37,107 bases of DNA from Methylococcaceae bacterium. GTDB lineage: Bacteria; Pseudomonadota; Gammaproteobacteria; Methylococcales; Methylomonadaceae. The translations under genes and the position numbers were made by a program. The notes below the pieces were generated by a model. That model was not told the origin of the DNA. It saw nothing but the letters and a program-made list of their open reading frames with translations, and ran no database searches. Each line of letters begins with the position of its first letter. Within the stretch, counting starts at the first letter, position 1. Positions 1,315-31,399 of the stretch are shown one piece after another. The DNA lies in contig JAJRDU010000113.1 of the NCBI GenBank assembly GCA_028748685.1, forward strand, positions 1 through 37,107, read 5' to 3'.

Positions 1315-4038
1315 ATGAAAATCATCCAACGCGTCACCAAAGCGGCCGAATGTTTTGCCCGACACCCATGGTGGATCTTAGGCATAGCTTTGGCGCTGTC
1401 GATTCTGTCTGGTTGGGCGACCGTGCAACTGCCGGTCCTCACTTCCCGGCAAGCGCTGCTTCCGCAGAACACGGCGGTGGCGAAGCGCTTCAACGATTTC
1501 TTGAAAAACTTCGGCGCCGCCTCGGACCTGATGGTAGTCCTGGAGGGCGCTCCCCGCGGGGAGTTGGAGGCTTTTGCCAACGATCTGGCCGTCAAGCTCC
1601 GGACAGAGCCCGAAATCGGTCAGGCGACGGCCCGTCTCGACATGGCGTTTTTCCTGGACCACGCTTATCTGATGATGCCGGCCGAGGCGCTGGACAAGCT
1701 TGCGGCGCTGGCGAATCAGCCCATCCTGGGTGGCGGTGGGATGGAAGAAAACCTGCGCAAAGCGGTGAGTTGGAGCAAAGACCCTCCGCCGCTGGGCGGA
1801 ACGGACACCGACCTGCAAACCGCCGAAGCCAGCCTCAATATGGTGGGATTCTTCCTGGAAGAATGGCAACGCTGGCTGTCCGCCGAAACTGCGCCCGCGA
1901 GCTTGGACTGGAACCGTCTGCTGGCCAAAAACGGCGCGGCCGGCATGGCCGATGGCTACTTCGCATCGCACGACGGGCGGATGCTGTTTTTGTTCGTCCA
2001 TCCGAAAATTCCTTCCGAGGATTTCGAGAATCTTGGCCCCTTCGTCGACAAGGTCAAGCAAGTATCGGCGGACTTGGCCAAACAAGCCAAAGACGCCGGC
2101 CGCACGCAGCCCACCGTGGGCCTAACCGGCTTGCCGGCCATCGTCTACGAGGAATACGTCAACATCCGCCAGGATATTACCCTGGTGCTATTCACCTCTG
2201 CGGGTCTGATCGCCTTGTTGATCCTGCTGGTGGTGCGCAGCGTACGCTGGGCCGTGCTGATTTTCGTCCCCATGGGCCTCGGGGTGCTGTGGAGTTTGGG
2301 CTTGGCCCTGGTCACCGTCGGCCACCTGACCATCATCACCGCCACTTTTATTGCCATTCTGTTCGGCTTGGGGGCTGACTACGGCATCTTTACATCCTCG
2401 CGGATCGCCGATGAGCGCCGGGCAGGCAAGCCCTTGGTGGAAGCTATCGGGGCAGGCATAGGCTCATCCTTTTTAGCAGTGATGACGGCGGGTGGCGCCT
2501 CGCTGCTGATTTTCGGTGCCTTGGCCACGGTCGATTTTCCCGGCTTCGCCGAACTGGGCTTGGTGGCGGCGAAAGGTGTGCTGATGATACTGATCAGCAC
2601 CTGGGTGGTTCAGCCTGCGCTGTACGCCTTGTGGCCGCCCAAGTTGAGAGACATCCGGTCGCCGGTAGCCGCTCTCACCCCTCGCCCTCAGGGAGAGGGG
2701 GCGGGGGTGAGGGGGCGGTTCCCCAAGCCTGTCGCGGTGACACTTGTGATGCTGGCCGTTGGCTTTGCTTTCTTCGGCGGTGTGAAGGGCTTCAGCATTC
2801 CTTTCGACTACGATCTGCTATCCATGTTACCCAAGGATTCCCAGTCGGCCTATTACCAACGCCGGATGGTGGCGGAGAGCGACTATCAGGCCGAAGTCAT
2901 TATTTTCACCGCCAAGGACATGGCCGAGGCTCGGCGGATCACCGGTGAAGCCGGCAAGCTCCCGACTATTGCCCAGGTGCAGTCGCTGACCAAGTTGTTT
3001 CCCGAGGACGCCGGCCAACGCCTGCACAAAGCCATAAGCATCGGCGAATCGTTCGCCCGGACAGACTACGCCAAGCAGGTTGCCGAGCTCGACCGAGTAG
3101 GCTTGTCTTCGGAATCGTTCGAGTTATTGCGGGCAGTACTGGAAAACGGCACCGCCATCATCGACGAAGCCGAGGAGCAGGCATTCTCGGCGGGGCATGC
3201 CAAACTGGTCGAGAGTTTGGAGAAAGTGCGCGGGCAGCTTTTGGCCATCTCGGCCAAATTGGCTGCGGATGGCGAACAGGGCAGGGCGCGCACCGAGAGC
3301 TTCTTGCGTACCTTGCTATCCGGCGCGGATGCCGGACTCAAAATCGTCAGCGCCTGGCGGCAGGCCGAAGCGCTCACCCCGGAGCAGATGCCATCAACCC
3401 TGCGCGACCGTTTCTTCGCCGACGACGGCCGCATCGCGGTTTACGCCTTTCCAGCTAAATCCGTGTACGATCCCGACAACCTCGATGCCTTGATTAAGGA
3501 CGTGTATAGCGTCTCGCCGGAAGCGACCGGTTTTCCGACCACGCATCAAGTGTTTTCCAAGGCGGTGGTGGACAGTTCCGTTCAGGGTACCCAGTTGGCT
3601 CTGGTGCTATGCCTGCTCTGGATCATGGCGGCAACCCGCAGTGCGCGCGGCTTCGCGTTGGCGGCTTTGCCCTTGCTGATCGGCGGCGGCTGGATGCTGG
3701 GAATTATGGCCCTGAGCGGCATTCGCTATAACTATGCCAATATCGTCGCCTTGCCGATGGTGATTGCACTGGCGGTGGATTACGGGGTATGGTTTAACTA
3801 TCGCTGGGGCGAATTGAAGGGCCAGCCGCCCTTGCAGGTCAGTCTATCCGTTGGCAAGGTAATCGGGTTGGCCGCGGGCACCGAGTTGGCGGGGCTGGGC
3901 GGTATTACCCTGGCAAGCTATCGGGGCGTATCTTCCCTAGGGCTGAGCATCACCATTGGATTATTGTGCTGCCTGATGGCTACTTTGGTGGTGAACCCGG
4001 CTATCGGACAGTTATTTGATTCCAGGAGAAAACCATAA
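1315..4038 (+). CDS. MMPL/RND superfamily lipid-type transporter (BstA-like candidate)
   Basis: 907 aa with two RND halves: TM segments, large periplasmic loops and repeated 'GLGADYGIF' / 'ALAVDYGVWF' TM4/TM10-type motifs. Confidence 0.9.
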   Translation: MKIIQRVTKAAECFARHPWWILGIALALSILSGWATVQLPVLTSRQALLPQNTAVAKRFNDFLKNFGAASDLMVVLEGAPRGELEAFANDLAVKLRTEPEIGQATARLDMAFFLDHAYLMMPAEALDKLAALANQPILGGGGMEENLRKAVSWSKDPPPLGGTDTDLQTAEASLNMVGFFLEEWQRWLSAETAPASLDWNRLLAKNGAAGMADGYFASHDGRMLFLFVHPKIPSEDFENLGPFVDKVKQVSADLAKQAKDAGRTQPTVGLTGLPAIVYEEYVNIRQDITLVLFTSAGLIALLILLVVRSVRWAVLIFVPMGLGVLWSLGLALVTVGHLTIITATFIAILFGLGADYGIFTSSRIADERRAGKPLVEAIGAGIGSSFLAVMTAGGASLLIFGALATVDFPGFAELGLVAAKGVLMILISTWVVQPALYALWPPKLRDIRSPVAALTPRPQGEGAGVRGRFPKPVAVTLVMLAVGFAFFGGVKGFSIPFDYDLLSMLPKDSQSAYYQRRMVAESDYQAEVIIFTAKDMAEARRITGEAGKLPTIAQVQSLTKLFPEDAGQRLHKAISIGESFARTDYAKQVAELDRVGLSSESFELLRAVLENGTAIIDEAEEQAFSAGHAKLVESLEKVRGQLLAISAKLAADGEQGRARTESFLRTLLSGADAGLKIVSAWRQAEALTPEQMPSTLRDRFFADDGRIAVYAFPAKSVYDPDNLDALIKDVYSVSPEATGFPTTHQVFSKAVVDSSVQGTQLALVLCLLWIMAATRSARGFALAALPLLIGGGWMLGIMALSGIRYNYANIVALPMVIALAVDYGVWFNYRWGELKGQPPLQVSLSVGKVIGLAAGTELAGLGGITLASYRGVSSLGLSITIGLLCCLMATLVVNPAIGQLFDSRRKP
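2672..2713. repeat. REP-like palindrome inside a coding sequence
   Basis: ctctcacccctcgccctcagggagagggggcgggggtgagg, an imperfect long palindrome of the common 'CCCTCACCC...CCCTCAGGGAGAGGG' REP type, translated in-frame as ALTPRPQGEGAGVRGR. Confidence 0.75.
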
Positions 4039-4877
4039 TGCGAAAAACTTGCCTGATTGTGATTGCCGGTCTCCTGGCTTCCTGCACCGTAAGCGCCGCG
4101 CCCGATCCGGAAATGATCGTGGTTTGCTATCCCGGCGGTTCCGTGAATGTCAAGGACGCCAACGGAGCGATGAGTGCCATGCTGCGGGTGGTGGAGCGCG
4201 TCGGCCAATGGCAGGCGAACAGCTTCAACAGCCTGTTCACCTCCAAAACGGACGAATGCAGGAAACAAATGGCCGAAAAGAATCCCAAGTTCGCCATCAC
4301 TTCCTTGGGCCTCTATTTGGAATTGCGCACTTTGCACAATTGGGTGCCGGTGGTCCAGCCCAGGATTAAAGGCCGTAGCAGCGAACGTTATCGGGTAGTC
4401 GCTCAGAAGGGCAAGTACAAGAATCTGGACGAGTTGAAAGGCAAAACCTTGGGCGGTACGGTATTGGAAGAACAGGCATTTATCGGCAAGATCGTTTTCG
4501 CCGGGAAATACGACCCCGCCAGTTTCTTTGTCCTAAAACCCTCCAATCAGGCCATCCGTGCATTGCGCGCCTTGGACAAAGGCGAACTGGATGCCGTCAT
4601 TTTGAATGAGCAACAATTCGGCGGACTCGCCTCGCTGCAATTGACGACACCCCTCGAAGCTATCTTCACTTCCGAGGAAATCCCAATGATGGGGGTGGTT
4701 GCCAATAGCGCTATCACGACAGTGGAAGATCGATCCCGCTTCGGCAGGGCGTTGGAGGAGATGTGTTCCGACGCCGAGGGTAAAAAGCTCTGCGAGCTGT
4801 TCGGGGTGGAATCCTTCGTTTTCATGGATGTATCCTTGTTCGAGCCCATGATCAAGCTTTGGGGCGAGGGGAAATAA
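4038..4877 (+). CDS. PhnD-like periplasmic substrate-binding protein (BstB-like candidate)
   Basis: Signal sequence, 'VVAQKGKYKNLDELKGKTLGGTV' PBP-type signature; start overlaps the upstream stop (TAATG). Confidence 0.78.
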   Translation: MRKTCLIVIAGLLASCTVSAAPDPEMIVVCYPGGSVNVKDANGAMSAMLRVVERVGQWQANSFNSLFTSKTDECRKQMAEKNPKFAITSLGLYLELRTLHNWVPVVQPRIKGRSSERYRVVAQKGKYKNLDELKGKTLGGTVLEEQAFIGKIVFAGKYDPASFFVLKPSNQAIRALRALDKGELDAVILNEQQFGGLASLQLTTPLEAIFTSEEIPMMGVVANSAITTVEDRSRFGRALEEMCSDAEGKKLCELFGVESFVFMDVSLFEPMIKLWGEGK

Positions 4878-4881
4878 GGCT

Positions 4882-5718
4882 TTGCGCAAAATACAACTTC
4901 TTTCTATTGTTTTAATCCCGGCATTTCTGGCGGGCTGTGCCGGGCTTCAGCGCGACCACGTTCGGTTCGATGGACTCTCCGATTGCCCCAAGCATTCCGC
5001 TACCACGCTGGCTGCCAAACAAAGCCAACTCAGCCCCTCGAGCGACACCCAAACCCTGGCCTGTGCGTTGACTGTTTTACGCGAAACCCAGGACCAATCG
5101 GTACTTCGCACTTCGTTAGGCAGCCGCCTGTCGCTATACCTGGCCGAACGCGAAACCAATCAGGAAAAACGCGAGAAGCTGGCGGCCGAAGGCGTGGGTT
5201 TCGCCGAAACCGCCTTGGCGCAGGGAGGCGATGGTGACGGGGCCGTACATTACTATCTGGCGACCAACCTGGGTCTGGCGATTCGCGAGCAAATCACCCT
5301 GGCGATCGATAACCTTAGCCGGCTGGAGAATGAACTGAAACGTGCGTTGGCCCTGAGCCCGGACATTGACGACGGTGGACCACTACGGATTTTGGGTGCG
5401 CTTTATCTCAAAGCTCCGGCTTGGCCCAACGGTATCGGCGACCCCGACAAGGCATTGGAACTGCTGGAAAGAGCGGTCAAGGAATATCCGGGACACCCTA
5501 TCAACCACCTGTTTTATGCCCAGGCGCTTTGGGATGAAGAGGACGAGGCACTTCTGCCACGGATCAAAGCCGAATTTTCGCAAGGGGAAAAGCTGTTGGC
5601 CGAGGGCAATTGGGGATACAGCAAACAGCCCTGGATAAAGGAATTCGAAGAATTTCGGCGGGAGATAGGGGAAGCCCGATTGGGCGTGCCGGCAGCCAAT
5701 GGCACGCCCCATAATTAG
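4882..5718 (+). CDS. TatT-like TPR lipoprotein (BstC-like candidate)
   Basis: TTG start, lipobox LAGC, helical TPR-like body with 'PDKALELLERAVKEYPGHPINHLFYAQALWDE'; 4 nt after the preceding stop. Confidence 0.7.
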   Translation: MRKIQLLSIVLIPAFLAGCAGLQRDHVRFDGLSDCPKHSATTLAAKQSQLSPSSDTQTLACALTVLRETQDQSVLRTSLGSRLSLYLAERETNQEKREKLAAEGVGFAETALAQGGDGDGAVHYYLATNLGLAIREQITLAIDNLSRLENELKRALALSPDIDDGGPLRILGALYLKAPAWPNGIGDPDKALELLERAVKEYPGHPINHLFYAQALWDEEDEALLPRIKAEFSQGEKLLAEGNWGYSKQPWIKEFEEFRREIGEARLGVPAANGTPHN

Positions 5719-11003: not shown

Positions 11004-11225
11004 CGCCGACTACAGCTTGACGGCTTCAGTCCACCTGCTGCGATCCAAGCCTGTGGTTTAAACCTGATGATGGAAGATAAATCGAAGAGGTGCTAATCCT
11101 ATCGGGGGTAGTAGAGTTATGTGCGATAGCGTACCGACTTGGTTCGATTTTTACGTCAAGCTCATGCTAGTTTTTTTCGCGGGTTTCCGCTTCAACTGCG
11201 GAGTCCGTGCAATGAGGATAAGCCA

Positions 11226-13162
<1,937 letters not shown>

Positions 13163-13166
<4 letters not shown>

Positions 13167-15154
13167 CAAGCCTGCAAACGCTTGACGGCAGACGGCGCGT
13201 GGTGATCGAAAATGTGCAACCGGCAATCGATTGCGGGCGGTTTCCGATCAAGCGCGTCATTGGCGAGCACGTGGACGTGGAGGCCGATGCTTTCAGCGAC
13301 AGTCACGATGCGCTGACTTGCGTGTTGCGCTATCGGCATGAATCGGAAGCCGACTGGCGTGAAACCGCGATGTCACCTTTGGGCGGCGATCGTTGGGGCG
13401 CATCGTTTACTATCACCGAACTCGGCCAATACATATACACCGTCACTGCCTGGATTGATGGCTTTTGTTCCTGGCGGCAAGAATTTGTGCGACGTGGCGA
13501 TGCCGAGGATGTCGCCATGGCGCTTCAGACCGGCGCTAAGCTGGTGGCTGAAGCCGCGGCGCGCGCAGCCGGCGAAAATCAATTGCAGCTTCAACAATTT
13601 GCCGAGGAATTGCGTACCGCTAAACCGGATGCAGGTTCAGCATTGGCGGTTTCCGAAACCTTGTCCGGCCTGATGCGGCGATATCCGGATCGCCGTCTGG
13701 CGACGGATTATCCGGGTACGCTAAGGGTGTGGGTGGAGCCGGTAAAAGCTCGCTACAGCACCTGGTACGAATTTTTTCCTCGCTCCTGCGCGGGTGAGGG
13801 CATGGCTCACGGCAGCTTCGCCGATTGCGAAAAGCGTTTGCCTTATGTGGCGGCCATGGGATTCGATGTGGTGTATTTGCCGCCCATCCATCCGATAGGG
13901 CTGAGCAAACGCAAGGGAGCGAACAACGCGCCGCTAGCGACTGAGAGCGATGTTGGCAGTCCGTGGGCAATTGGTTCGGCGGATGGCGGCCATAAATCGA
14001 TTCATCCGCAACTGGGTACCATGGACGATTTCCGGCATCTGGTGGCGAAAGCGCATGAACTGGGCATTGATATCGCCCTGGATATCGCCTTCCAGTGTTC
14101 TCAGGATCATCCTTATCTGCAGGACCATCCGCCTTGGTTCCGGCGGCGAGCGGACGGCAGTATACAGTTTGCCGAGAATCCGCCCAAGAAATACGAAGAC
14201 ATCGTCCCTTTCAATTTTGAATGTGACGCCTGGCATGAACTGTGGCGGGAATTGCTGGATGTGTTCCTGTTCTGGGTCGGGCAAGGGGTGCACATATTCC
14301 GCGTCGACAACCCGCACACCAAACCGTTTCCGTTTTGGGAATGGCTGATAGGCGAAGTAAAGCGTAGCCACCCCGAGACAATTTTTCTGGCCGAAGCCTT
14401 TACCCGTCCGAAAATCATTTACCGTCTCGCCAAGCTGGGTTTCAGCCAGTCCTACAATTATTTCCCTTGGCGCAATACCAAGAGCGAACTGGAAACCTAT
14501 TTCACGGAACTTACCCGTACCGAAGTGCGCGAATATTTCCGGGCCAATCTGTGGCCGAATACGCCCGACATCCTGCCCGAGTATTTGCAATTCGGAGGCC
14601 GCCCGGCCTTTATGCTGCGCCTGGTGCTGGCCGCCACGCTGGGCGCGAATTACGGCATCTATGGACCGGCTTACGAGTTGATGGAGGCGGTTCCTCGCGA
14701 GGCGGGCGGCGAAGAATATCTCGATTCCGAGAAATACCAAGTGCGGCGCTGGCCGCTTGAACGGGCGGATAGCCTGAAGGATTTCATCGCCCGGCTGAAC
14801 CGCATCCGCCGGGAAAACCCGGCTTTGCAACAGGATCATCGCTTGTATTTTTTTACGGTGGACAACGAGAGTCTGCTTTGTTACGCCAAAACCACGGCGG
14901 ATAACGCCGAAATCATTCTGGTGGTTGCCAATCTGGACCCTCATCATACCCAATCCGGCTGGGTCACGCTGCCGCTGGATGTGCTTGAGCTGGATGATCG
15001 CCCTTATCAGGTACATGATTTGCTGACGGGGGCGCGCTTTTTATGGAATGGTGCACGCAACTACGTCGAAATCAATCCTCGGGTATCGCCGGCGCATATT
15101 TTCAAATTGCGTCGGCGTGTACGTACCGAACATGACTTCGACTATTTTCTGTAA
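13163..15154 (+). CDS. glgE: Alpha-1,4-glucan:maltose-1-phosphate maltosyltransferase
   Basis: 663 aa: 'WYEFFPRS', 'FDVVYLPPIHPIGLSKRKGANN', 'GVHIFRVDNPHTKPFPFWEWLI', 'FLAEAFTRPKIIYRLAKLGFSQSYNYFPWRNTK'. ATGA overlap with glgB. Confidence 0.95.
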
Positions 15155-15163
15155 GAGGGAATT

Positions 15164-18100
15164 ATGAGCGAAACAACAGCCGGCGAGATAAAAAAAACGC
15201 TCTTGGAAAACAGGCAATGGATGGACGATCCGCTCTGGTACAAGGATGCCGTGATTTACGAACTGCCCGTCAAAGCCTTTTTTGACAGCGACAATAATGG
15301 CGTCGGCGATTTCGCGGGCTTGATCCAGAAGCTAGATTATCTGCAGGAGTTGGGGGTGAACACCCTTTGGTTGCTGCCCTTCAATCCTTCGCCGATGCGC
15401 GATGACGGGTATGACGTAGCCGATTATCGCAATGTCCATTCCGAGTACGGCACCATGGCCGATTTCAGGCAGTTCGTGAAGGATGCGCACCGCCGCAATC
15501 TCAAGGTCATCACCGAACTGGTCATCAATCACACCTCCGATCAGCATCCCTGGTTTCAGGCCGCGCGCAGGGCGCCCGCCGGTTCGAGCAAACGTGATTA
15601 TTACGTCTGGAGCGATACCAAACAGAAATTTCCCGAGACGCGCATTATCTTTACCGATGCCGAGCAATCCAACTGGACCTGGGATGAGGAAGCCCATGCC
15701 TATTACTGGCATCGGTTTTTCTCCCATCAACCGGACCTCAACTTCAATAATCCACAGGTCGTGAAAGCGGTTATCAAATTGATGCGTTTCTGGCTGGACC
15801 ATGGCGTTGATGGTGTGCGGCTGGACGCGATTCCCTACTTGTGTGTGCGCGAGGGCACTCAAAACGAAAACCTACCCGAAACCCATGCCGTGATCAAACA
15901 AATGCGAGCGGTGCTCGATCAGCATTACCCAAACCGGGTGTTTCTCGCCGAAGTCAATCAGTGGCCGGAGGACGTGCGCGACTACTTCAGTGACGGCGAT
16001 GAATGTCACATGGCTTACCACTTTCCCCTGATGCCGAGGATGTACATGGCCATCGCTCAGGAGGATAGGCATCCCATCGTCGACATCATGCGTCAGACTC
16101 CGGATATACCGGACAGCTGCCAGTGGGCCATTTTTCTGCGCAATCACGACGAGCTTACCCTGGAGATGGTCACAGACAAGGAACGTGACTATATGTACCA
16201 GATGTATGCCGGCGATCCGCGTTCGCGCCTGAACATCGGCATCCGCCGCCGGCTGGCGCCGCTGATGGACAATGAGATGAATAAAATCCGGCTGATGAAC
16301 AGCATCTTGTTATCCATGCTGGGCTCTCCCATCATCTATTACGGCGATGAAATCGGCATGGGTGACAATTTCTTCCTGGGCGACCGCAACGGAGTTCGAA
16401 CCCCTATGCAATGGAGTCCGGACCGTAATGCCGGTTTCTCCCGCGCCGATCCGCAACGCCTGTATCTGCCGCCCATCATGGATCCCGTGTATGGTTACGG
16501 GGCGGTCAATGTCGAGGCGCAGTTGCGCGAGCGCGCTTCACTGCTGAACTGGATGCGGCGTGTGCTGACGGTACGCAAAAGTCATCAGGCCTTCGGTCGC
16601 GGGAAACTGGTGTTTTTACACCCAGGCAATCGCAAGATACTCGCTTATTTCAGAATTTACGCGGACGACACCATTCTTTGCGTGAGTAATCTGTCGCGTG
16701 CCGCGCAAGCGGTCGAGCTTGATCTTTCGGCTTATAAGGGCCGCGTGCCGGTGGAAATGATGGGGCGCTCGGCTTTCCCGCCTATTGGTGAATTGCCTTA
16801 TCTTCTGACATTGCCCGGCCATAACTTCTATTGGTTCCGGCTGGCCGGCGGCGAAGAGGTCCCTGCCTGGCACGAGGAACATTTGCCTCCCGAGGAATTA
16901 CCGACGCTGGTGCTGTTCGAGGGCTTGCGCAGTTTCTTTCCTGGCCGTGTCGTGCTCTGGCGGATTGCGATGGCGGAGAAGGCGCGTCTCCAACTTGAAA
17001 ATGACGCATTGCCGCGCTTTGTCGCGACGCAACGCTGGTATGGAGGCAAGGGAGAGGCGGTAACGCGCGTGGTGATCAGCGATTATGTCGAGTGGGAAAA
17101 TCAGGGTGATAGCTGGCTGTTATCCCTGAGCCGCATCGAAGCGGTGGCCGGAGAGCCGATAAGCTGTTTTTTGCCGCTGGCATTGGCCTGGGAAAATGCT
17201 GGCTCGGACCGCCTGCGCGCCATGTCAGCGACCACTGTGGCCAAAGCGCGCCGCCAGTCACAGCTTGGCATCCTGGGCGATGCCTTTGCCGACGAGATGT
17301 TCTGCCGGGCGCTGGTGCAGGCCATCGGCCAGGGTCTATCGTTACGCTGTGAACATGGTGTCATTCGCTTCTCGCCGACCAGCGCTTACCAGGCGCTTGT
17401 CGGAACATCGTCCGAAACCCTATCGGTGCGGCCAGCCGCCAGGCAAGGCAGTAATACCGCTATGGTGCTGGGCGAACAGCTATTCCTGAAAGGCTATCGG
17501 CATCTACTGATTGGAACCCATCCGGAGCTGGAGATAGGGCGCTTTCTGACCGAAAAAGCCCAGTTTCCCAATATGGCGACGGTGGCCGGCGCAATCGAGT
17601 ATGAGGCCGCCGACGGCGGTTGCATGACGCTTGCCTTATTACAGGGTTATGTCAGAAATCAGGGTGATTGTTGGAGTTACACGCTGGATTACCTGGATCG
17701 TTTCCTGGAAGAAAGTCGCGCCGCCACAACACCGCCAGCACCCGCCGAGCAAGCGCATGGCGCTTATCTGGTTCTGATCCGCACGCTCGGCCAGCGTACC
17801 GGCGAACTTCACAATGCGCTGGCTACGGTAACGGGGGATTCCGCCTTCGATCCAGAGCCGGTAAGCGATGCCGATCTTGAGGGCTGGGTCTTACAGGTGC
17901 AAGCCGAGGCTACCGCCACATTGGATCGGCTCGAACGCCGGCGGGAGGGGCTTGCCGATAGTGTTCGCGCGTTAGTGCAAACCTTGCTGGCGCAACGCAA
18001 TGAACTGATGGATCGCATTCACGCCTGTATTTCCGGACACTTGGATGCCGTCAAGACACGCTACCATGGCGATTATCATCTGGGGCAGGTGCTGCTCGCC

Positions 18101-18547
18101 AAGAATGATTTCGTGATCACCGATTTTGAGGGCGAGCCGACATGCCCGCTCGCCGAACGCCGGCGGAAACACTCGCCCTTGAGGGATGTGGCCGGCATGC
18201 TGAGGTCATTCAACTATGCAGCCTACAGCGCGGTTGCCCAAGACAGTGCGGAACGCCCCGAAGACATGGCGAAGCGAGAACTTTTGGTGCGTGGCTGGGA
18301 GGCCGAGGTTGGGCAAGTTTTCCTCGCCGCCTACGATGAAACCGTACACGGCTCAGGATTGTTGGCAACGTCGGCATCGCTACGCGGCCTGCTGGACCTG
18401 TTCCTGCTGGAAAAAGCACTTTACGAGGTTCGCTACGAACTCGACAACCGCCCCAATTGGGTGGTCATTCCGCTACGCGGTATCTTGGCCTTACTGAACC
18501 CGCAATTTAGCGATATTCAAGTGTTGCCGCTGATAGGGCAGTCGTGA
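15164..18547 (+). CDS. treS: Trehalose synthase / maltokinase fusion (TreS-Mak)
   Basis: TreS: 'DPLWYKDAVIYELPVKAFFDSDNNGVGDF', 'DGVRLDAIPYLCVREGT'. C-terminal maltokinase: 'ALPRFVATQRWYGGKGEAVTR', 'HGDYHLGQVLLAKNDFVITDFEGEP'. Confidence 0.95.
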   Translation: MSETTAGEIKKTLLENRQWMDDPLWYKDAVIYELPVKAFFDSDNNGVGDFAGLIQKLDYLQELGVNTLWLLPFNPSPMRDDGYDVADYRNVHSEYGTMADFRQFVKDAHRRNLKVITELVINHTSDQHPWFQAARRAPAGSSKRDYYVWSDTKQKFPETRIIFTDAEQSNWTWDEEAHAYYWHRFFSHQPDLNFNNPQVVKAVIKLMRFWLDHGVDGVRLDAIPYLCVREGTQNENLPETHAVIKQMRAVLDQHYPNRVFLAEVNQWPEDVRDYFSDGDECHMAYHFPLMPRMYMAIAQEDRHPIVDIMRQTPDIPDSCQWAIFLRNHDELTLEMVTDKERDYMYQMYAGDPRSRLNIGIRRRLAPLMDNEMNKIRLMNSILLSMLGSPIIYYGDEIGMGDNFFLGDRNGVRTPMQWSPDRNAGFSRADPQRLYLPPIMDPVYGYGAVNVEAQLRERASLLNWMRRVLTVRKSHQAFGRGKLVFLHPGNRKILAYFRIYADDTILCVSNLSRAAQAVELDLSAYKGRVPVEMMGRSAFPPIGELPYLLTLPGHNFYWFRLAGGEEVPAWHEEHLPPEELPTLVLFEGLRSFFPGRVVLWRIAMAEKARLQLENDALPRFVATQRWYGGKGEAVTRVVISDYVEWENQGDSWLLSLSRIEAVAGEPISCFLPLALAWENAGSDRLRAMSATTVAKARRQSQLGILGDAFADEMFCRALVQAIGQGLSLRCEHGVIRFSPTSAYQALVGTSSETLSVRPAARQGSNTAMVLGEQLFLKGYRHLLIGTHPELEIGRFLTEKAQFPNMATVAGAIEYEAADGGCMTLALLQGYVRNQGDCWSYTLDYLDRFLEESRAATTPPAPAEQAHGAYLVLIRTLGQRTGELHNALATVTGDSAFDPEPVSDADLEGWVLQVQAEATATLDRLERRREGLADSVRALVQTLLAQRNELMDRIHACISGHLDAVKTRYHGDYHLGQVLLAKNDFVITDFEGEPTCPLAERRRKHSPLRDVAGMLRSFNYAAYSAVAQDSAERPEDMAKRELLVRGWEAEVGQVFLAAYDETVHGSGLLATSASLRGLLDLFLLEKALYEVRYELDNRPNWVVIPLRGILALLNPQFSDIQVLPLIGQS

Positions 18548-18590
18548 TTTTTGCCCATGACTGATGTTACAGAATTAAGTGTTGATTTTA

Positions 18591-18865
18591 GGTTTTCAGG
18601 GGTTGAGTCGCTATTGCGACGTTTATTTTGTAGTCGGTTTTCGCACCGACAGGCGAGATACTTTTCTTTGCTTGTCCAAAGAAAAGTATCCAAAAGAAAC
18701 GACACCCGGATTCCGCCAATTTCCTGTGCTTCTCGCTTTTGGCGAGGGTTTTCGGAAGGGGCTTCCCAGCCCCTCCGAAAACGATCGGTATCCCTGCCGC
18801 TCCCCTAGCGGGCCTTTTTCGCCAAAAGCTGCGATGCTCGGGGCGGAACAACGGGACTGAAAACC
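18591..18865 (+). repeat. Structured repeat, copy 1 (MITE-like)
   Basis: Homologous to the reverse complement of 24272-24634. Perfect 14-bp hairpin GATACTTTTCTTTG-cttgtc-CAAAGAAAAGTATC; terminal GGTTTTCAG / CTGAAAACC. Confidence 0.65.
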
Positions 18866-18911
18866 ACCATTGCGTAACACCAGTGAATAATTCAAGCAGG
18901 AGGTTAGCAAT

Positions 18912-21029
18912 ATGACTAAGACAATAACGGCGGTATGGCCGGGGCGACCCTACCCGCGCGGCGCATTTTGGGACGGCGAAGGGGTGAATTTTGCTGTTTT
19001 CTCCGAACATGCCGAAAAGGTCGAATTGTGCTTGTTCGACGCCGCCGGAAAGAACGAAGTCCAGCACGTCGAACTCAAAGAGCGTAGCGATTTAGTCTGG
19101 CACTGCTATCTCCCCGAGGCCCGTCCCGGATTGCTTTATGGTTTTCGGGTGCATGGGCCTTACCGTCCAAAAGAGGGGCATAGGTTCAATCCGAACAAGC
19201 TGCTGATAGAACCCTATGCAAAAGATATAGTGGGTACGCCGCTCTGGAGCGACGCCCATTTCGGCTATCGTATAGGCGCCAAGGACGACGATCTGTCTTT
19301 TAGTCGTCGCGACAATGCCAATGTCATGCCGAAGTGCCGGGTGATCGATCAGGCCTTTGCTTGGGGAAATGATCATCCCCCCGATATTCAATGGTGCGAT
19401 ATGGTGATTTATGAGCTGCACGTCAAAGGCTTTACCATGCAACATCCCGATATTCTGCCCAAGTTGCGCGGCACTTATGCCGGATTGGCGATGGACCCCG
19501 TCATCGAGCATCTCCAACGGCTAGGCGTGACGACCGTTGAACTCATGCCGGTGCATGCTTTCCTCGATGATCGCCATCTGGTCGAGCGGGGCGCGCGCAA
19601 TTATTGGGGATATAACTCCATAGGCTTTCTGGCGCCCGATTCCCGTTATTCGGCCAGCGGTCAGATCAGTGAATTTAAAACCATGGTCAAGACATTGCAT
19701 AAGGCGGGTATCGAAGTGATTCTGGATGTGGTTTACAACCATACCGCCGAAGGCAACCAACTGGGACCGACGCTGTCCTTCCGGGGTATCGACAATGCAT
19801 CCTACTATCGCCTAGTCGGTGATAATCCACGCTATTACATGGACTACACCGGCTGTGGCAATACCTTGGACATGCAGCAATCCTGCGTTCTGCAGTTGAT
19901 GATGGACAGCCTGCGTTACTGGGTGCAGGAAATGCATGTGGACGGCTTCCGCTTCGATCTGGCGTCCTCGTTGGCGAGAGAGTTACACGAAGTGAACCAG
20001 CTTGGCACCTTCTTCAATACCATTCGTCAGGATCCGGTGCTGAGTACCATCAAGCTGATTGCCGAACCTTGGGATCTGGGTGAAGGCGGCTATCAAGTGG
20101 GAAATTTCCCATTGGGCTGGTCGGAATGGAACGATAAGTATCGCGATTGTATTCGTGCCTACTGGAAAGGTGATGAAGGCTTGATCGGGGAACTGGCGCA
20201 GCGCTTGACCGGATCCAGCGACCTGTATGAACGCAGTGGGCGAACTCATGCCAGCATCAATTTTCTCAGTGCGCACGACGGCTTCACCTTGCATGACTTG
20301 GTGACCTACAACGACAAGCACAACGAGGCCAATCAAGAAGACAATTCCGGTACCGACAATAACCGTTCCTGGAATTGCGGCGTCGAGGGGGAAACCGACG
20401 AACCGGCGATCAACGCCTTGCGCGCCAGGCAAAAGCGCAATCTTCTGGCGACTCTGCTGTTTTCACAAGGGGTTCCGATGCTGCAGGCAGGCGACGAGAT
20501 GGGGCGTACCCAGTTGGGTAATAACAATGCCTATTGTCAGGATAATGCGATTAGCTGGCTGTCGTGGGAACTGAAGAAACAAGATAAGGATTTGCTTGCA
20601 TTCACTCGGCGTATTATCGGCTTGCGCAACCAGCACCCCTTGTTTCGGCGACGTTATTTTTTTCAGGGAAGCCCCAATTACGGTGGCGAGATAAAAGATA
20701 TCATCTGGCTCAATTTCGATGGCTCAGAAACCAGAGATGATGACTGGAATCAGGCATCTTCGCATTGTCTTGGCCTTTATTTTGAAGGCGGCAAACTGAT
20801 CGAAACCGACGCGCGCGGACGGCGTTTACAGGACAATAATCTCTTGCTGCTGCTGAATTCTTATCATGAGGATATCGCATTTATGTTGCCGCAATTCGAG
20901 GATCATGAGTATTGGGAGGTGCTGCTCGACACGCGCGATGCTATCGGTACGCCGGATGTTACACGTTACAAGACGGAGCATGCTTATCCGTTGGGTGGAC
21001 GCTCGCTGGTACTACTGAAACAGGCGTAG
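18912..21029 (+). CDS. glgX: Glycogen debranching enzyme (isoamylase type)
   Basis: 'PYPRGAFWDGEGVNFAVFSEHAEKVELCLFD', 'YELHVKGFTMQHPDI', 'DVVYNHTAEGNQLGPTLSFRGIDNASYYRL', 'DGFRFDLASSLARE'. AGGAGGT ribosome-binding site. Confidence 0.95.
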   Translation: MTKTITAVWPGRPYPRGAFWDGEGVNFAVFSEHAEKVELCLFDAAGKNEVQHVELKERSDLVWHCYLPEARPGLLYGFRVHGPYRPKEGHRFNPNKLLIEPYAKDIVGTPLWSDAHFGYRIGAKDDDLSFSRRDNANVMPKCRVIDQAFAWGNDHPPDIQWCDMVIYELHVKGFTMQHPDILPKLRGTYAGLAMDPVIEHLQRLGVTTVELMPVHAFLDDRHLVERGARNYWGYNSIGFLAPDSRYSASGQISEFKTMVKTLHKAGIEVILDVVYNHTAEGNQLGPTLSFRGIDNASYYRLVGDNPRYYMDYTGCGNTLDMQQSCVLQLMMDSLRYWVQEMHVDGFRFDLASSLARELHEVNQLGTFFNTIRQDPVLSTIKLIAEPWDLGEGGYQVGNFPLGWSEWNDKYRDCIRAYWKGDEGLIGELAQRLTGSSDLYERSGRTHASINFLSAHDGFTLHDLVTYNDKHNEANQEDNSGTDNNRSWNCGVEGETDEPAINALRARQKRNLLATLLFSQGVPMLQAGDEMGRTQLGNNNAYCQDNAISWLSWELKKQDKDLLAFTRRIIGLRNQHPLFRRRYFFQGSPNYGGEIKDIIWLNFDGSETRDDDWNQASSHCLGLYFEGGKLIETDARGRRLQDNNLLLLLNSYHEDIAFMLPQFEDHEYWEVLLDTRDAIGTPDVTRYKTEHAYPLGGRSLVLLKQA

Positions 21030-21034
21030 ACCAT

Positions 21035-21249
21035 ATGAAACGCGTGCATGACATGCCGTTTGGGGCCAGCGTGCTATCCGATGGCAAGGTGCGCTTCCGT
21101 TTGTGGACATCACCGTCATGGATTTGATGCCTGTGGCAGATTTTCCAAGGACGCGCAACTTGGGGTTCCGACGGCGTGCCGCTGATTGCACAGTTGGGTT
21201 TATGCCGCCCTGGTGCGCCGCCTGGTTCATCGAGGATGTGCGGTCATGA
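21035..21249 (+). pseudogene. treZ: Collapsed malto-oligosyltrehalose trehalohydrolase remnant
   Basis: N-terminal 'MPFGASVLSDGKVRFRLW' then, out of frame, 'ITVMDLMPVADFP.TRN' and a C-terminus-like 'MPPWCAAWFIEDVRS*' whose stop overlaps the treY ATG (ATGA). About 215 bp versus about 1.8 kb for an intact gene. Confidence 0.8.
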
Positions 21250-24245
21250 AATATAATGTGAAGCGCTTTATCGAGGATATAACCGCCAAACACGCTAAAG
21301 CTGGCCAGACACAGGCTCGACAAACCGACTTGCCACCGGTAACCGAGCCACGCATCCCATTGGCGACCTATAGGCTGCAATTCAACGGCGACTTCACTTT
21401 TAATCAGGCGCGTGAAATTGTTCCCTACCTAAGCGCGCTAGGCATCTCCCACCTTTATGCCTCACCCTATCTCAAGGCGCGGCCTGGCAGCCGGCACGGT
21501 TACGACATCATCGATCACAACGCACTGAATCCCGAGATAGGCACGGACGAGGAGTTTGAGCGGCTTTGCAAAACCCTCGCCCAGCACGGCATGGGCCAAA
21601 TTCTGGACGTGGTGCCTAATCATATGGGGGTGCTGGGCGGAGACAATGCCTGGTGGCTGGACGTGCTGGAAAATGGCCAGACAGCCGTTCATGCCGGGTT
21701 CTTCGATATCGACTGGGCGCCGATAAAGGCCAAGCTGCATGGCAAAGTGTTATTACCGGTATTAGGCAAGCATTATGGCGCGGTGCTGGAAAATGCCGAA
21801 CTACAACTACGCTTTGATGCGGATCACGGTGAATTCGGCATCTATTACTACGAGCACCACTTTCCGGTGGATCCGGCGGAATATCCGCACATCCTGGCGT
21901 TCCGGATGGATGCCTTGAGCGCATGCTTGGGGGAGGGCAACCCGTTATTGATGGAATACCAGAGTCTGGTGACTGCATTCCATAATCTTCCATCCCGTGG
22001 TGAAGCATCGCCAGAACGCCAGCTTGAGCGCAGGCGCGACAAGGAAGTGCATAAGCGGCAACTCGCCGCTCTCGTTGCCCATTCCGCCGAGATTGCCCGG
22101 TTTCTGGAAGAGAACGTGCGCGTCTTTAACGGTAAGGCCGGGGAACCGGCCGGTTTCGATCGTCTTCACCACTTGATCGAGGCGCAAGCATACCGACTGG
22201 CATTCTGGCGGGTAGCCTCGGATGAGATTAATTACCGGCGGTTTTTCGACATCAACGATCTGGCCGGCTTGCGCATGGAAAACGACGAGGTCTTCGACGC
22301 GACTCATCAGTTATTGCTGCGCCTGATTCAGGAGGGCAAGCTGGATGGTCTGCGTTTGGACCATCCTGATGGTTTGTACGATCCGGAAGCGTATTTTTGC
22401 AAGCTGGTCAAACACTGCAACCGAATCGGGTGTTCGCCTTATCTGGTGGTCGAAAAAATACTGGCGGCAGACGAGTGTTTGCGTAGTAGCTGGCCGGTGC
22501 AAGGTACTACGGGTTATGAATTCACCAATCTACTCAACGGGCTATTTGTGGACACCAGCGCCGCCAAACGTATGCAGCGCGCCTATCACAGCTTCATCGG
22601 CGAGCATGTCGATTTCGGAGATCTGCTTTACCGTTCCAAAATCCTGATCATGAAGTCGGCGCTGTCGGGGGAACTGAATGTGTTGGCTAACTTGCTCTCA
22701 AAAATCGCCGAAGCCGACCGCCAGACTTGCGATTACACGTTGAACGGATTGCGCTTGGCATTGGCGGAAATCATTGCCTGCTTCCCGGTTTATCGGGGAT
22801 ACATCAGCCACCGCGGAGTGGCGGAGGAAGATCGTCGCAACATCGAACAGGCAGTGGCAACGGCTAAACGTAGAAGCACGACAGCGGATGCCAGCATTTT
22901 CGATTTTTTGCGAGAGGTGCTCACCCTTGCCGCGTCGGATGGCAAATCCCCCGCGCATGCCGAGCAGGTACTGGCCTTTGCCATGAAATTCCAGCAATTC
23001 ACCAGCCCGGTCATGGCGAAAGGGCTGGAGGACACCAGCGCCTATATTTATCACCGCTTGTTGTCGCTCAATGAAGTCGGCGGCGATCCACGCCGATTCG
23101 GCGTGACACGCAGCGCGTTCCACCGCGCCAATCAACTGCGCGCTCAGAATCATCCTCATACCCTGTTGGCCACCTCCTCTCACGACACCAAACGCAGCGA
23201 AGATATGCGCGCCCGCCTCAATGTGCTGTCTGAATTACCGGCTACCTGGCGGTTGGCGCTAAGGCATTGGAGCCGCGCAAACCGAAGTATTAAACGCATG
23301 GTTGATGGTATGGTGGTTCCTACCCTCAACGATGAATATTTCATCTATCAGACCTTGCTGGGGATTTGGCCTCCAGGTGAGCCGGACACCAATGAAATGG
23401 CGCGATTCATTGTTCGGGTCAAGGAATATCTGGTCAAGGCCGTGCGCGAAGCCAAGGTACATACCAGTTGGATAAACCCCAATACAGCCTATGAAGATGC
23501 AGTCACGGCGTTTGCCGAAGCCCTGATCAATTCGCCGGTGGAGAGTGCGTTCCTGACGGACTTTCGGTCTTTTCAGCGGCGGATCGCCCGGCTCGGGATG
23601 TTTAACAGCCTGTCGCAGACATTGATCAAACTCACCGTGCCGGGTGTACCGGATATTTATCAAGGTTGCGAATCTTGGGATTTCAGCCTGGTGGACCCCG
23701 ACAACCGGCGGCCGGTTGATTTCGGTTCCCGGCAAACCATGCTGACTGCATTGCGGACCCTAGTCGCCCAGGAATCGCCGCAACGTAGTGCGGGGGTAAG
23801 AGCACTATGTGAGACGCTGGAAGACGGCCGGGCCAAATTGCTGATTGTCCTATCGGCACTGATGTTGCGAAAACGCTGGCCGGAAGTGTTTCAACAGGGA
23901 AGCTATTTGCCGCTGGCAGTCAGGGGAGAGCATGCGGCTCATCTCTGCGCCTATGCGCGCATTGCCGGGAGGCGTATCGTCATTACGGTGGCGCCGCGCT
24001 TCCTCGCGCGGCGGCTGGGAGACGCCGAAGTGCTCCCGCTGGGAGAAAAGGTTTGGGGGAATACCTCGGTGGAACTGCCTTTTCATCAGCAAGATAAGCT
24101 ATATACCTGCGCCTTCACGGGAAAGGTTCTGAAGCCCGATAACCAGCTGTCCGGATGGCGTCTGTCCGTCGCGCAAGTGCTGGCGGAGTTTCCGGTGGGG
24201 CTGGTTATCGGTGAGAATAGCCTTGCTGAGCCTGAGGCGCTATGA
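21246..24245 (+). CDS. treY: Malto-oligosyltrehalose synthase
   Basis: 'PLATYRLQFNGDFTFNQAREIVPYLSALGISHLYASPYLKARPGSRHGYDIIDHNALNPEIGTDEEFERL', 'GQILDVVPNHMG', 'GLRLDHPDGLYDP', 'TSSHDTKRSEDMRARL'. ATG at 21246 preferred over the 21186 ORF start. Confidence 0.95.
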   Translation: MKYNVKRFIEDITAKHAKAGQTQARQTDLPPVTEPRIPLATYRLQFNGDFTFNQAREIVPYLSALGISHLYASPYLKARPGSRHGYDIIDHNALNPEIGTDEEFERLCKTLAQHGMGQILDVVPNHMGVLGGDNAWWLDVLENGQTAVHAGFFDIDWAPIKAKLHGKVLLPVLGKHYGAVLENAELQLRFDADHGEFGIYYYEHHFPVDPAEYPHILAFRMDALSACLGEGNPLLMEYQSLVTAFHNLPSRGEASPERQLERRRDKEVHKRQLAALVAHSAEIARFLEENVRVFNGKAGEPAGFDRLHHLIEAQAYRLAFWRVASDEINYRRFFDINDLAGLRMENDEVFDATHQLLLRLIQEGKLDGLRLDHPDGLYDPEAYFCKLVKHCNRIGCSPYLVVEKILAADECLRSSWPVQGTTGYEFTNLLNGLFVDTSAAKRMQRAYHSFIGEHVDFGDLLYRSKILIMKSALSGELNVLANLLSKIAEADRQTCDYTLNGLRLALAEIIACFPVYRGYISHRGVAEEDRRNIEQAVATAKRRSTTADASIFDFLREVLTLAASDGKSPAHAEQVLAFAMKFQQFTSPVMAKGLEDTSAYIYHRLLSLNEVGGDPRRFGVTRSAFHRANQLRAQNHPHTLLATSSHDTKRSEDMRARLNVLSELPATWRLALRHWSRANRSIKRMVDGMVVPTLNDEYFIYQTLLGIWPPGEPDTNEMARFIVRVKEYLVKAVREAKVHTSWINPNTAYEDAVTAFAEALINSPVESAFLTDFRSFQRRIARLGMFNSLSQTLIKLTVPGVPDIYQGCESWDFSLVDPDNRRPVDFGSRQTMLTALRTLVAQESPQRSAGVRALCETLEDGRAKLLIVLSALMLRKRWPEVFQQGSYLPLAVRGEHAAHLCAYARIAGRRIVITVAPRFLARRLGDAEVLPLGEKVWGNTSVELPFHQQDKLYTCAFTGKVLKPDNQLSGWRLSVAQVLAEFPVGLVIGENSLAEPEAL

Positions 24246-28400: not shown

Positions 28401-29255
28401 TCAAGCCAAAATCCCTAATTTACGGCGACCGGAGACCAATAACCCTACCAGTCCGCTACCAAACAGCCACACCGCGCCCGGCACGGGTACGGTCGATACC
28501 GCCGCGCATCCCGCTTCGGAACCAATACCCAAGCAGAAGCCACCCATGCGAGAGCCCGCCACACCACCTATCATTCCCTTGTTGGCCGTGGTCAGCAACA
28601 AATCGCCCGTCAGTTTCCAATTGTCGGCATCGGTGGCCGAAACATTCAGATTGGCAAGATAATAAGCCTCCATCAGCCAACCAATGTTATTGTCGAGATG
28701 CCAGCCGCTTAGATTATTGTTAAGACTGCGTTGACTCGCGCTGTAACTCAGCGAATAATCGCCGTAAACCATGCGCGAACCGGTAAACGGACCCGCACCA
28801 AGGGCTATTTTTTGCGCGCCGGTCATGCCCAACGTACCGGTGCCGGAATTGTCGCCAGTATTGAAGGCAAAGTCGGCACTAGTCGCTTTGACGTGGCGAC
28901 CTACGGCTTGACCGACTGGGTCCGCACCAGTAGCGGTAATATCATGCACCAAGGGCGCAGAAGGTTGTTCGGTCATCCCACCACCGTTCACCATATCCGC
29001 TAAAGCAACAGAGGTGTAATTCGACTCGGCGGTATTGTAAAAATGGGCGGTATAAATGCCGGGGGTGGTGCTGTTACCACCTTGTAAGGCCGCAAAGGCT
29101 TCCCTGTCGAAATTGATGGTAAACGTGCCGATCCCGCTGGCGGCACTCAAGATTGTCGCGCTGGCACTGGTTGGCGCCAACAGACCGGTTAACGCGCCAA
29201 ATATCATGGCTCCGGCTGTTGCCAATTTAAAATTATTGTTTTTCAATGGTTTCAT
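28401..29255 (-). CDS. Secreted protein with PEP-CTERM-like (VPxPxxxWLFGSGLxGL) sorting signal
   Basis: N-terminal signal 'MKPLKNNNFKLATAGAMIFGALTGLLAPTSASA'; C-terminus 'VPVPGAVWLFGSGLVGLLVSGRRKLGILA'. Confidence 0.8.
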   Translation of the reverse strand: MKPLKNNNFKLATAGAMIFGALTGLLAPTSASATILSAASGIGTFTINFDREAFAALQGGNSTTPGIYTAHFYNTAESNYTSVALADMVNGGGMTEQPSAPLVHDITATGADPVGQAVGRHVKATSADFAFNTGDNSGTGTLGMTGAQKIALGAGPFTGSRMVYGDYSLSYSASQRSLNNNLSGWHLDNNIGWLMEAYYLANLNVSATDADNWKLTGDLLLTTANKGMIGGVAGSRMGGFCLGIGSEAGCAAVSTVPVPGAVWLFGSGLVGLLVSGRRKLGILA

Positions 29256-29641
29256 GTTTTTCCTTAAATATATGTCTCGAAGTTTGAAGCAGATGCTTCG
29301 AGAAGAAATTCCAGCAAACACAAGGCCTCATTCCATTTTCATTTTTCATTCAAAGCCTTATAGCATTTAGCGGCAGCTATCCCTGCACTTCAATCTGTGT
29401 GAAATCCCATAATTCAAGTACTTATACGGCATTTGCCTCACTTAATACTGGCCGTGAAGAACAGCTTTCAACTTTTTTACTAATCATCGTGGATTTAACA
29501 TCCATTAAAGCTATGCATGCTTTTATCATCAATAAGTTATAAAAATACTTCCGGAAGGTTTTAACGCTCTTTCGGTATAAAATTGGTAAAAATTCGGTGC
29601 ACTTTCCCAGACTACGCGCTAATAATCAGGAAATAGCCCCA

Positions 29642-31399
29642 CTACTGCTGATCCGAATTGACCCACAATTCGACTTTTTGCTGACGGTAGGGAAGCGTGA
29701 ATGTTCCACATAAGCGGTAACCGGCCGGAAAGCGGGCTAATTGTTTCGGCATGCTAGGATCAAAACTGCCGGTGTCGAGGTCTATTCCGATTGCCGCCGA
29801 CTGTAATGTCTCGGGCAATAGGCTATCCAATATCGGTTCGGTGGACAGCCTGTCCTGTAACAACGGAAAACCGGGCATAACAGTCTGAAGCATCAGCCCG
29901 ATGCCGGGAATGTTATATAAACCAAGGAACGTCTGCCCAGGCTGAATGCCGCAAGAATCGGCCACCTGAATTAGTTTGATGTAGGCTTCCCGGCTTGCGC
30001 TATCCACCTTAAAGGTTCCGAGCGGTGGAATGGTGATAGCTTCCGACTGCTCCTGCAAAGGACGAAACAGGCGATAAGGCGCTCGAAAGCCGTTGGTCAA
30101 CACCTGGGAAGTTACTGTCGTGATGAATAGCGCACCGATGAGTCCGGCCACGAAGCGATTCTCGGCAGGCAAAGGCAGGGCAAATGCCAACAAACCGACC
30201 AATACTCCCCAGGGGGCGAGCGAAAATAATATCTGGGTATGAAGCGCGTTGAAGGTGCCGATCGCGGTGCAGACGGGAAGCAGCGCAAGTGCACCGAGCA
30301 CGCAAATAGCCTTTCGGTTTCGTATCCATATCCGTGCCGTGGCGAGTAAAATTAGAACCACGGCAACCAAAAGAGGCGCAGTCTGCTGTTCGTATCTATC
30401 CATACCGCCCAGCAGATAGCCATTCGTCAACACGATGTAGCCGAATATCGCCAAACCAATCAAAGCAATCCAAAAACGAGGCCGGACCGTGTGAATGCCA
30501 AACAGGACGAGCGGAATCCAAAAGTCAATGGCGATCAATCGGAAGAAGTCACCGGTTTGATTCAAGTAGCGGATTAGACGCTCCGAAAAGGTTTCGTTCG
30601 TCCCCAGCATATACACCACCGAGCCCAGCCGAAACTGGGCCAATGCTTCGCCGAAACTGCTCTGTACAAGGATGATTGTAACTATCGTAGCCGTCATGCT
30701 GATGGTGATCAGCACCATCCGCAGCATTCGTTCGCGAGAGGAATCACCCAACACGGCCGCGATCACGCAGATTATGCCCCAGGCGATGGTTCCGGAAGAA
30801 AACTTAGCGAGAAATGCGACACCCAGGGCCACGCCCGCGAGCATATGAAAACCGTAAAAGCGTAAACTGCGGAGCGCGTTTGCCGTCAACGAAACGAGTC
30901 CCAGGCCCAGATAAGTGCCTGAAACCGCCAACAAGTTGTACGAGGGCGTAAAGGGCACGAAGGCGTGATAAAGGCTTGCGCCGGCCAGGCTGCAAGCCAC
31001 GATCAACAACACCTGACGCTTGCGGCACGCTACCCCGACGCCAAAGGCACGAAACGAGTGTTCCAGCCCTAGCCCCAGCACAATGGACGAGAGTACCAAA
31101 ATAGCCATGCCTATCGCGCGAAACCCGACCAAACTACCGCTCAGTTGCCAGAGCCCCGAGGTAAACCAGTGCATGGCTGTTGCCCAGAGCATGATGGCCT
31201 CGGGATGCATTGCGGTGGCTAGGTAATAAGATTCGTCCGTCAGGTCCAGACCTCGGTCCAGAGACCAGAGGCAATAAGCCAACAGGATCACGACACAGCT
31301 CAATATCCACAAGGTAATGATCGAATCGAATACACGTGTGAATTTTTGCATGCTGCCTAGCCTCCGTTGGCGTTGAATCAGAATATTGCCTATTGTCAT
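29642..31399 (-). CDS. Polytopic membrane protein, possibly a GT-C / glycosyltransferase-39-like protein
   Basis: 585 aa, many hydrophobic segments, early 'SLDRGLDLTDESYYLATAMHPEAIMLWATAMHW' extracytoplasmic loop. Start could be 31351 (MQKFTRVF). Confidence 0.6.
   Translation of the reverse strand: MTIGNILIQRQRRLGSMQKFTRVFDSIITLWILSCVVILLAYCLWSLDRGLDLTDESYYLATAMHPEAIMLWATAMHWFTSGLWQLSGSLVGFRAIGMAILVLSSIVLGLGLEHSFRAFGVGVACRKRQVLLIVACSLAGASLYHAFVPFTPSYNLLAVSGTYLGLGLVSLTANALRSLRFYGFHMLAGVALGVAFLAKFSSGTIAWGIICVIAAVLGDSSRERMLRMVLITISMTATIVTIILVQSSFGEALAQFRLGSVVYMLGTNETFSERLIRYLNQTGDFFRLIAIDFWIPLVLFGIHTVRPRFWIALIGLAIFGYIVLTNGYLLGGMDRYEQQTAPLLVAVVLILLATARIWIRNRKAICVLGALALLPVCTAIGTFNALHTQILFSLAPWGVLVGLLAFALPLPAENRFVAGLIGALFITTVTSQVLTNGFRAPYRLFRPLQEQSEAITIPPLGTFKVDSASREAYIKLIQVADSCGIQPGQTFLGLYNIPGIGLMLQTVMPGFPLLQDRLSTEPILDSLLPETLQSAAIGIDLDTGSFDPSMPKQLARFPAGYRLCGTFTLPYRQQKVELWVNSDQQ

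Follow-up and report, generated by a model that had tools for sequence, protein, structure and literature searches.

Trafficking of sterols in bacteria is represented by one characterised system, BstABC, which is known mostly from Methylococcaceae. The Bst proteins of Methylococcus capsulatus bind 4-monomethylsterol with Kd values of 2.4-4.4 µM and picked C-4 methylsterols from a mixture containing hopanoids (Zhai et al. 2024, eLife, PMC10942540; structures 7T1M and 7T1S). Deletions of bst in M. capsulatus did not succeed, and sterol transport is therefore unproven in vivo even in that organism. Co-localisation with osc, sdmA or sdmB is an association reported for sterol-making methanotrophs and is not required by the family models. 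Methylomonas lenta, a relative with both an oxidosqualene cyclase (OSC) and BstABC, is a reported sterol producer (PMC13277303).

The locus described here lies in a window of 37,107 nucleotides, which is the entire contig C113 of a genome of the Methylomonas group (G000; 3.68 Mb over 337 contigs, completeness 77%, contamination 4%), in a genus that includes M. lenta. Three adjacent genes on the forward strand follow the order A-B-C: bstA (1315-4038, 907 aa, ATG start) for an inner-membrane MMPL/RND permease, bstB (4038-4877, 279 aa, ATG start) for a PhnD-like, bi-lobed periplasmic sterol-binding protein with an N-terminal signal peptide, and bstC (4882-5718, 278 aa, TTG start) for a TatT-like TPR lipoprotein. 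The reading-frame coordinates agree with the tight packing given in the initial annotation, bstA and bstB overlapping by 1 base (TAATG) and bstB being followed by bstC after 4 nt. Sequences resembling ribosome-binding sites are located 5' of bstB (AGGAG) and of bstC (GAGGGG). Since the same three genes recur in the same order in 36 of 38 related loci, the other two of which sit at contig ends, the trio is not a product of chance.

Each Bst protein has its own equivalog model in NCBIfam, with a curated cut-off, and all three products pass: BstA with 1641.9 bits on NF045600 (cut-off 1400), BstB with 495.1 bits on NF045601 (cut-off 350) and BstC with 439.3 bits on NF045602 (cut-off 350). Identity to the M. 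capsulatus proteins over nearly their full length is 61.3% for BstA, 62.5% for BstB and 54.2% for BstC, using as reference the sequences given by Zhai et al. 2024 (PMC10942540). The protein classes first proposed from the sequence (MMPL/RND, PhnD-like and TatT-like TPR) were recovered by Pfam as MMPL in BstA (E 5.6e-25), Phosphonate-bd in BstB (E 6.5e-11) and a weak TPR/TAtT match in BstC (E 3.5e-5), where TAtT (PF16811) remained sub-threshold at 23.7 bits against a cut-off of 26.5. As had been claimed, genes for an ABC ATPase, an ABC permease or a TRAP system were not recognised on the contig.

The solved structures closest in sequence are 7T1M for BstB (E 5.4e-112) and 7T1S for BstC (E 8.1e-87). 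AlphaFold models of the two proteins (pLDDT 88 and 85, respectively) also matched these structures first in a fold search, BstB with a TM score of 0.87/0.94 (0.94 when normalised by the target) and an rmsd of 1.4 Å, and BstC with 0.77/0.92 (0.92 target-normalised) and 2.2 Å. The next matches, phosphonate- and oxyanion-binding proteins and TPR proteins, followed far behind. BstB has the bi-lobed fold in common with the phosphonate/oxyanion binders PhnD, PtxB and ArrX (TM about 0.5-0.74), but is 10-17% identical to them, is unaccompanied by ABC transporter genes and carries sterol-pocket residues instead; its Phosphonate-bd match reflects the shared fold.

As a fold search shows the fold only, the cavities of BstB and BstC were assessed through their residues, mapped by alignment onto the M. 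capsulatus numbering. All three residues of BstB that contact the sterol head are kept (E116, Y118 and N190, equivalent to Glu118, Tyr120 and Asn192), and 16 of the 19 tail-cavity residues are identical, the rest being conservative changes. In BstC, 22 of 34 pocket residues are kept, compared with 56% identity over the whole protein; among the conserved positions is E89, the counterpart of Glu86, whose mutation weakens sterol affinity in M. capsulatus (PMC10942540). The N-terminus of BstC contains an LAGC lipobox with Ala at position +2, which is consistent with a predicted outer-membrane lipoprotein. The signal peptide of BstB contains LASC (4074-4085, residues 13-16), which is readable as a lipobox; no Cys is located at this position in those relatives whose N-termini were read. 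The nearest solved relative of BstA is the hopanoid transporter HpnN (6WU0). BstA carries two D-Y motifs (D355 and D822), positioned as in MMPL proton relays, which would form its proton relay.

The three reading frames are intact and show few changes at otherwise invariant sites. With dN/dS values of 0.12-0.19 against relatives, similar to those of sterol-linked copies, the operon is under purifying selection, and relaxed selection was not seen in this copy. The original assignment to BstABC is upheld by the equivalog models, the identity to M. capsulatus, the solved structures (by sequence and by fold) and the pocket residues, and the proposed alignment and structure comparison, carried out on all three proteins by alignment and on BstB and BstC by models, gave the Bst structures first; the three genes are almost certainly true orthologues of bstA, bstB and bstC.

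Proteins, gene order, folds and head-contact residues are thus the same as in M. capsulatus, whereas the operon described here does not lie beside sterol genes. Because the window is a whole contig, only 1.3 kb exists upstream of bstA, and no gene was recognised in it up to the contig end. The same operon is present within the genus in M. lenta, where CYP51, an NTF2-like gene, OSC and squalene monooxygenase (SMO) lie directly upstream of bstA, and in genome G179, where OSC and CYP51 are just upstream. Most relatives with enough flanking sequence carry sdmA or SMO at most 0.5 kb upstream of bstA; the operon is therefore at least outside the usual arrangement next to sdmA or SMO. An Rfam scan of 1.4 kb upstream gave no match above a family threshold, and a promoter/terminator scan found signal about as rich as in shuffled sequence. 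Positions 166-219 look like a tRNA-Arg(CCU) of which only the 3' half is present, and ARAGORN called no tRNA there. A 12-bp terminator-like inverted repeat follows (stretches at 166-219 and 316-353), and the tRNA-like stretch resembles what an integrated element leaves behind at its attachment site. From this stretch it is about 166 bases leftward to the contig end, which lies in low-GC DNA with a TTTGTCGCA repeat.

The initial annotation had cautioned that no sterol gene was visible and had left the cargo open. No sterol-synthesis gene was found on the 37-kb contig, and thus no co-localisation with osc, sdmA or sdmB, in a search whose upstream side was just 1.3 kb long. The proposed search of the genome likewise detected no OSC, SMO, SdmA or CYP51 in the 77%-complete assembly, and the caution stands. 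A match to PF08491 (squalene epoxidase) belongs to a UbiH-like hydroxylase and was rejected as SMO. Two TIGR01787 matches were rejected as OSC, as they score 902 and 564 bits on TIGR01507 against 236 and 158 bits on osq_cycl; the cyclases found in the genome are two hopene cyclases.

In a family sample of 151 genomes, BstB exceeded its cut-off in 19 and an OSC-type cyclase was present in 49. OSC-type cyclases were called at TIGR03463 scores of at least 284 bits, hopene cyclases scoring at most 237; because none reaches the curated 851, the call was based on this score gap and on a sample OSC (653 versus 249 on the hopene model). OSC is present in 17 of the 19 BstABC genomes with a completeness of 90% or more, the family sample contributing 15 of 16 and the genus set 2 of 3. 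The two without it are G120, a Methylobacter MAG that is 100% complete, where OSC, SMO, SdmA and CYP51 were not found and a contig of 7.8 kb carries Bst, and G195 (91% complete), where BstABC is present and OSC and CYP51 were not found. BstABC and OSC can therefore be uncoupled. For the source genome, missing assembly sequence is the likeliest reason why sterol genes were not seen, since OSC is present in about 90% of BstABC genomes and the assembly lacks about a quarter of its genome. The unusual context is mostly explained by the incomplete genome, and a simple Bayesian estimate makes true absence of the sterol genes unlikely, though by no means negligible.

The operon most likely functions in transporting 4-methylsterols to the outer membrane. 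Sterol ranks first as cargo in view of the conserved pocket, the cyclase present in most BstABC-bearing relatives and the two HpnN proteins that cover the hopanoids; that BstABC serves sterol export in the source organism is regarded as probable. BstA would act as a proton-driven RND/MMPL pump, extracting a 4-methylsterol or a closely similar sterol from the inner membrane and passing it to periplasmic BstB, whose hydrophobic cleft would hold the sterol across the periplasm. BstB would then deliver it to BstC, a putative periplasm-facing outer-membrane lipoprotein, for insertion into the outer membrane. The sterol would most likely be made by the cell itself, from genes absent in the incomplete assembly. 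Orthology, gene order, the folds of BstB and BstC, conservation of pocket and relay residues and purifying selection were established here; for the direction of transport, energy coupling and hand-over we infer the same course as has been inferred for M. capsulatus.

A different origin of the cargo was considered for an orphan BstABC, which could handle 4-methylsterols shed by neighbouring methanotrophs, without synthesis by the cell and possibly in the inward direction. Sterol genes were detected neither on the contig nor in the assembly, BstABC likewise occurs without OSC in the better-assembled G195 and G120, and as far as contigs show, bstABC lies apart from sterol genes in the window, G195, G120 and G129. 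Pocket and head-contact residues are unchanged in these orphan copies, although BstA of G195 is more divergent. The four copies tend to cluster in a tree built from the joined Bst proteins, with the window and G195 paired at a support of 74 and G120 and G129 at 100. However, the loose grouping as a whole has a support of only 56, the pairing of the window with G195 is likewise weak, and grouped G129 does have OSC, with SMO and SdmA, on a different contig. The source genome is just 77% complete and the orphans are draft assemblies, and scavenging by the source organism is considered unlikely. The data on orphan copies allow for a mobile standalone bst cassette, short of proof. The broader proposition, that methanotrophs including the source organism, G195 and G120 keep a functional standalone BstABC without sterol synthesis, for scavenged sterols or a different lipid, is put forward as a tentative one that probably does not hold.

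Alternatively, the same proteins might carry another cargo, a hopanoid or another polycyclic lipid. Squalene-hopene cyclases are present in the genome where OSC was not found, and BstA belongs to the same RND/MMPL fold family as HpnN (6WU0, 5KHN). Yet BstA scores just 362 bits on the HpnN model, far under the cut-off of 751.85, whereas contigs C179 and C229 encode two bona fide HpnN proteins, which score 917 and 900 bits against a cut-off of 752. Export of hopanoids thus does not require BstA, which weakens this explanation. The head-contact residues are moreover the same as in sterol-linked copies, and the M. capsulatus Bst proteins favoured sterols over the hopanoids of the mixture (PMC10942540). 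Another cargo is accordingly judged improbable for this operon. Outside Methylococcales, BstABC-like trios occur in a Myxococcales MAG (L081) and two Deltaproteobacteria MAGs (L085 and L086), all three without any match to a squalene or oxidosqualene cyclase. BstB of L085 and L086 has D-F-N in place of E-Y-N at its head-contact positions, and the trios there may therefore carry another lipid. A contig titled Candidatus Thermoplasmatota (L050) holds SdmB-SdmA-BstABC with 74-88% identity to methanotroph genes; as most likely a mis-binned bacterial (Methylobacter-like) contig, it was set aside as evidence for archaeal Bst.

A recently acquired or decaying cassette without function in this cell was also weighed. 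The G+C content of the operon (0.584) is higher than in any of the 40 control windows taken from the genome, and only 4 of these have a poorer tetranucleotide fit, which places the operon in roughly the lowest 10%; this composition hints at horizontal acquisition. Within the genus, BstA is present in only 4 of 37 genomes. The intact reading frames, low dN/dS and scarcity of changes at otherwise invariant sites stand against loss of function, which is very improbable. The contig itself is not contamination, a possibility raised by TreS (15164-18544), which is closest to a protein outside the genus (80% identity): GlgX on the contig has counterparts with 94-95% identity in three genomes of the genus, and the tetranucleotide usage of the contig is closest to the source genome (r 0.89 to its own contigs). 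TreS forms part of a glycogen/trehalose cluster (11139-24245) with GlgB, GlgE-like, TreS-maltokinase, GlgX and TreY, the last with 84-87% identity in those three genomes. GlgB-GlgE was not seen next to TreS in several members of the genus, which together with the outside affinity of TreS suggests replacement by recombination. Two reading frames on the reverse strand (28401-29321, 306 aa, and 29642-31399, 585 aa), located between an RND pump of the heavy-metal type and a TetR-like gene, had no Pfam or NCBIfam match.

Finally, an ordinary phosphonate-binding protein and TRAP T-component beside an unrelated RND pump, as the Pfam matches to Phosphonate-bd and, weakly, TAtT would have it, is refuted by the equivalog models, the nearest solved structures and the kept three-gene order, all of which indicate Bst, and by the lack of recognised ABC or TRAP genes on the contig.

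With sterol export as the preferred function, the context and not the proteins is the unusual part of this BstABC, in a genus in which most species examined are without a sterol cyclase. A standalone BstABC, if true, would contradict the reported rule by which bst genes invariably accompany sterol synthesis. A BstABC apart from sterol genes would also allow the cargo to be tested where a knockout may be viable, and with the new Bst sequences, natural variants can be compared to see which pocket residues track sterol synthesis.
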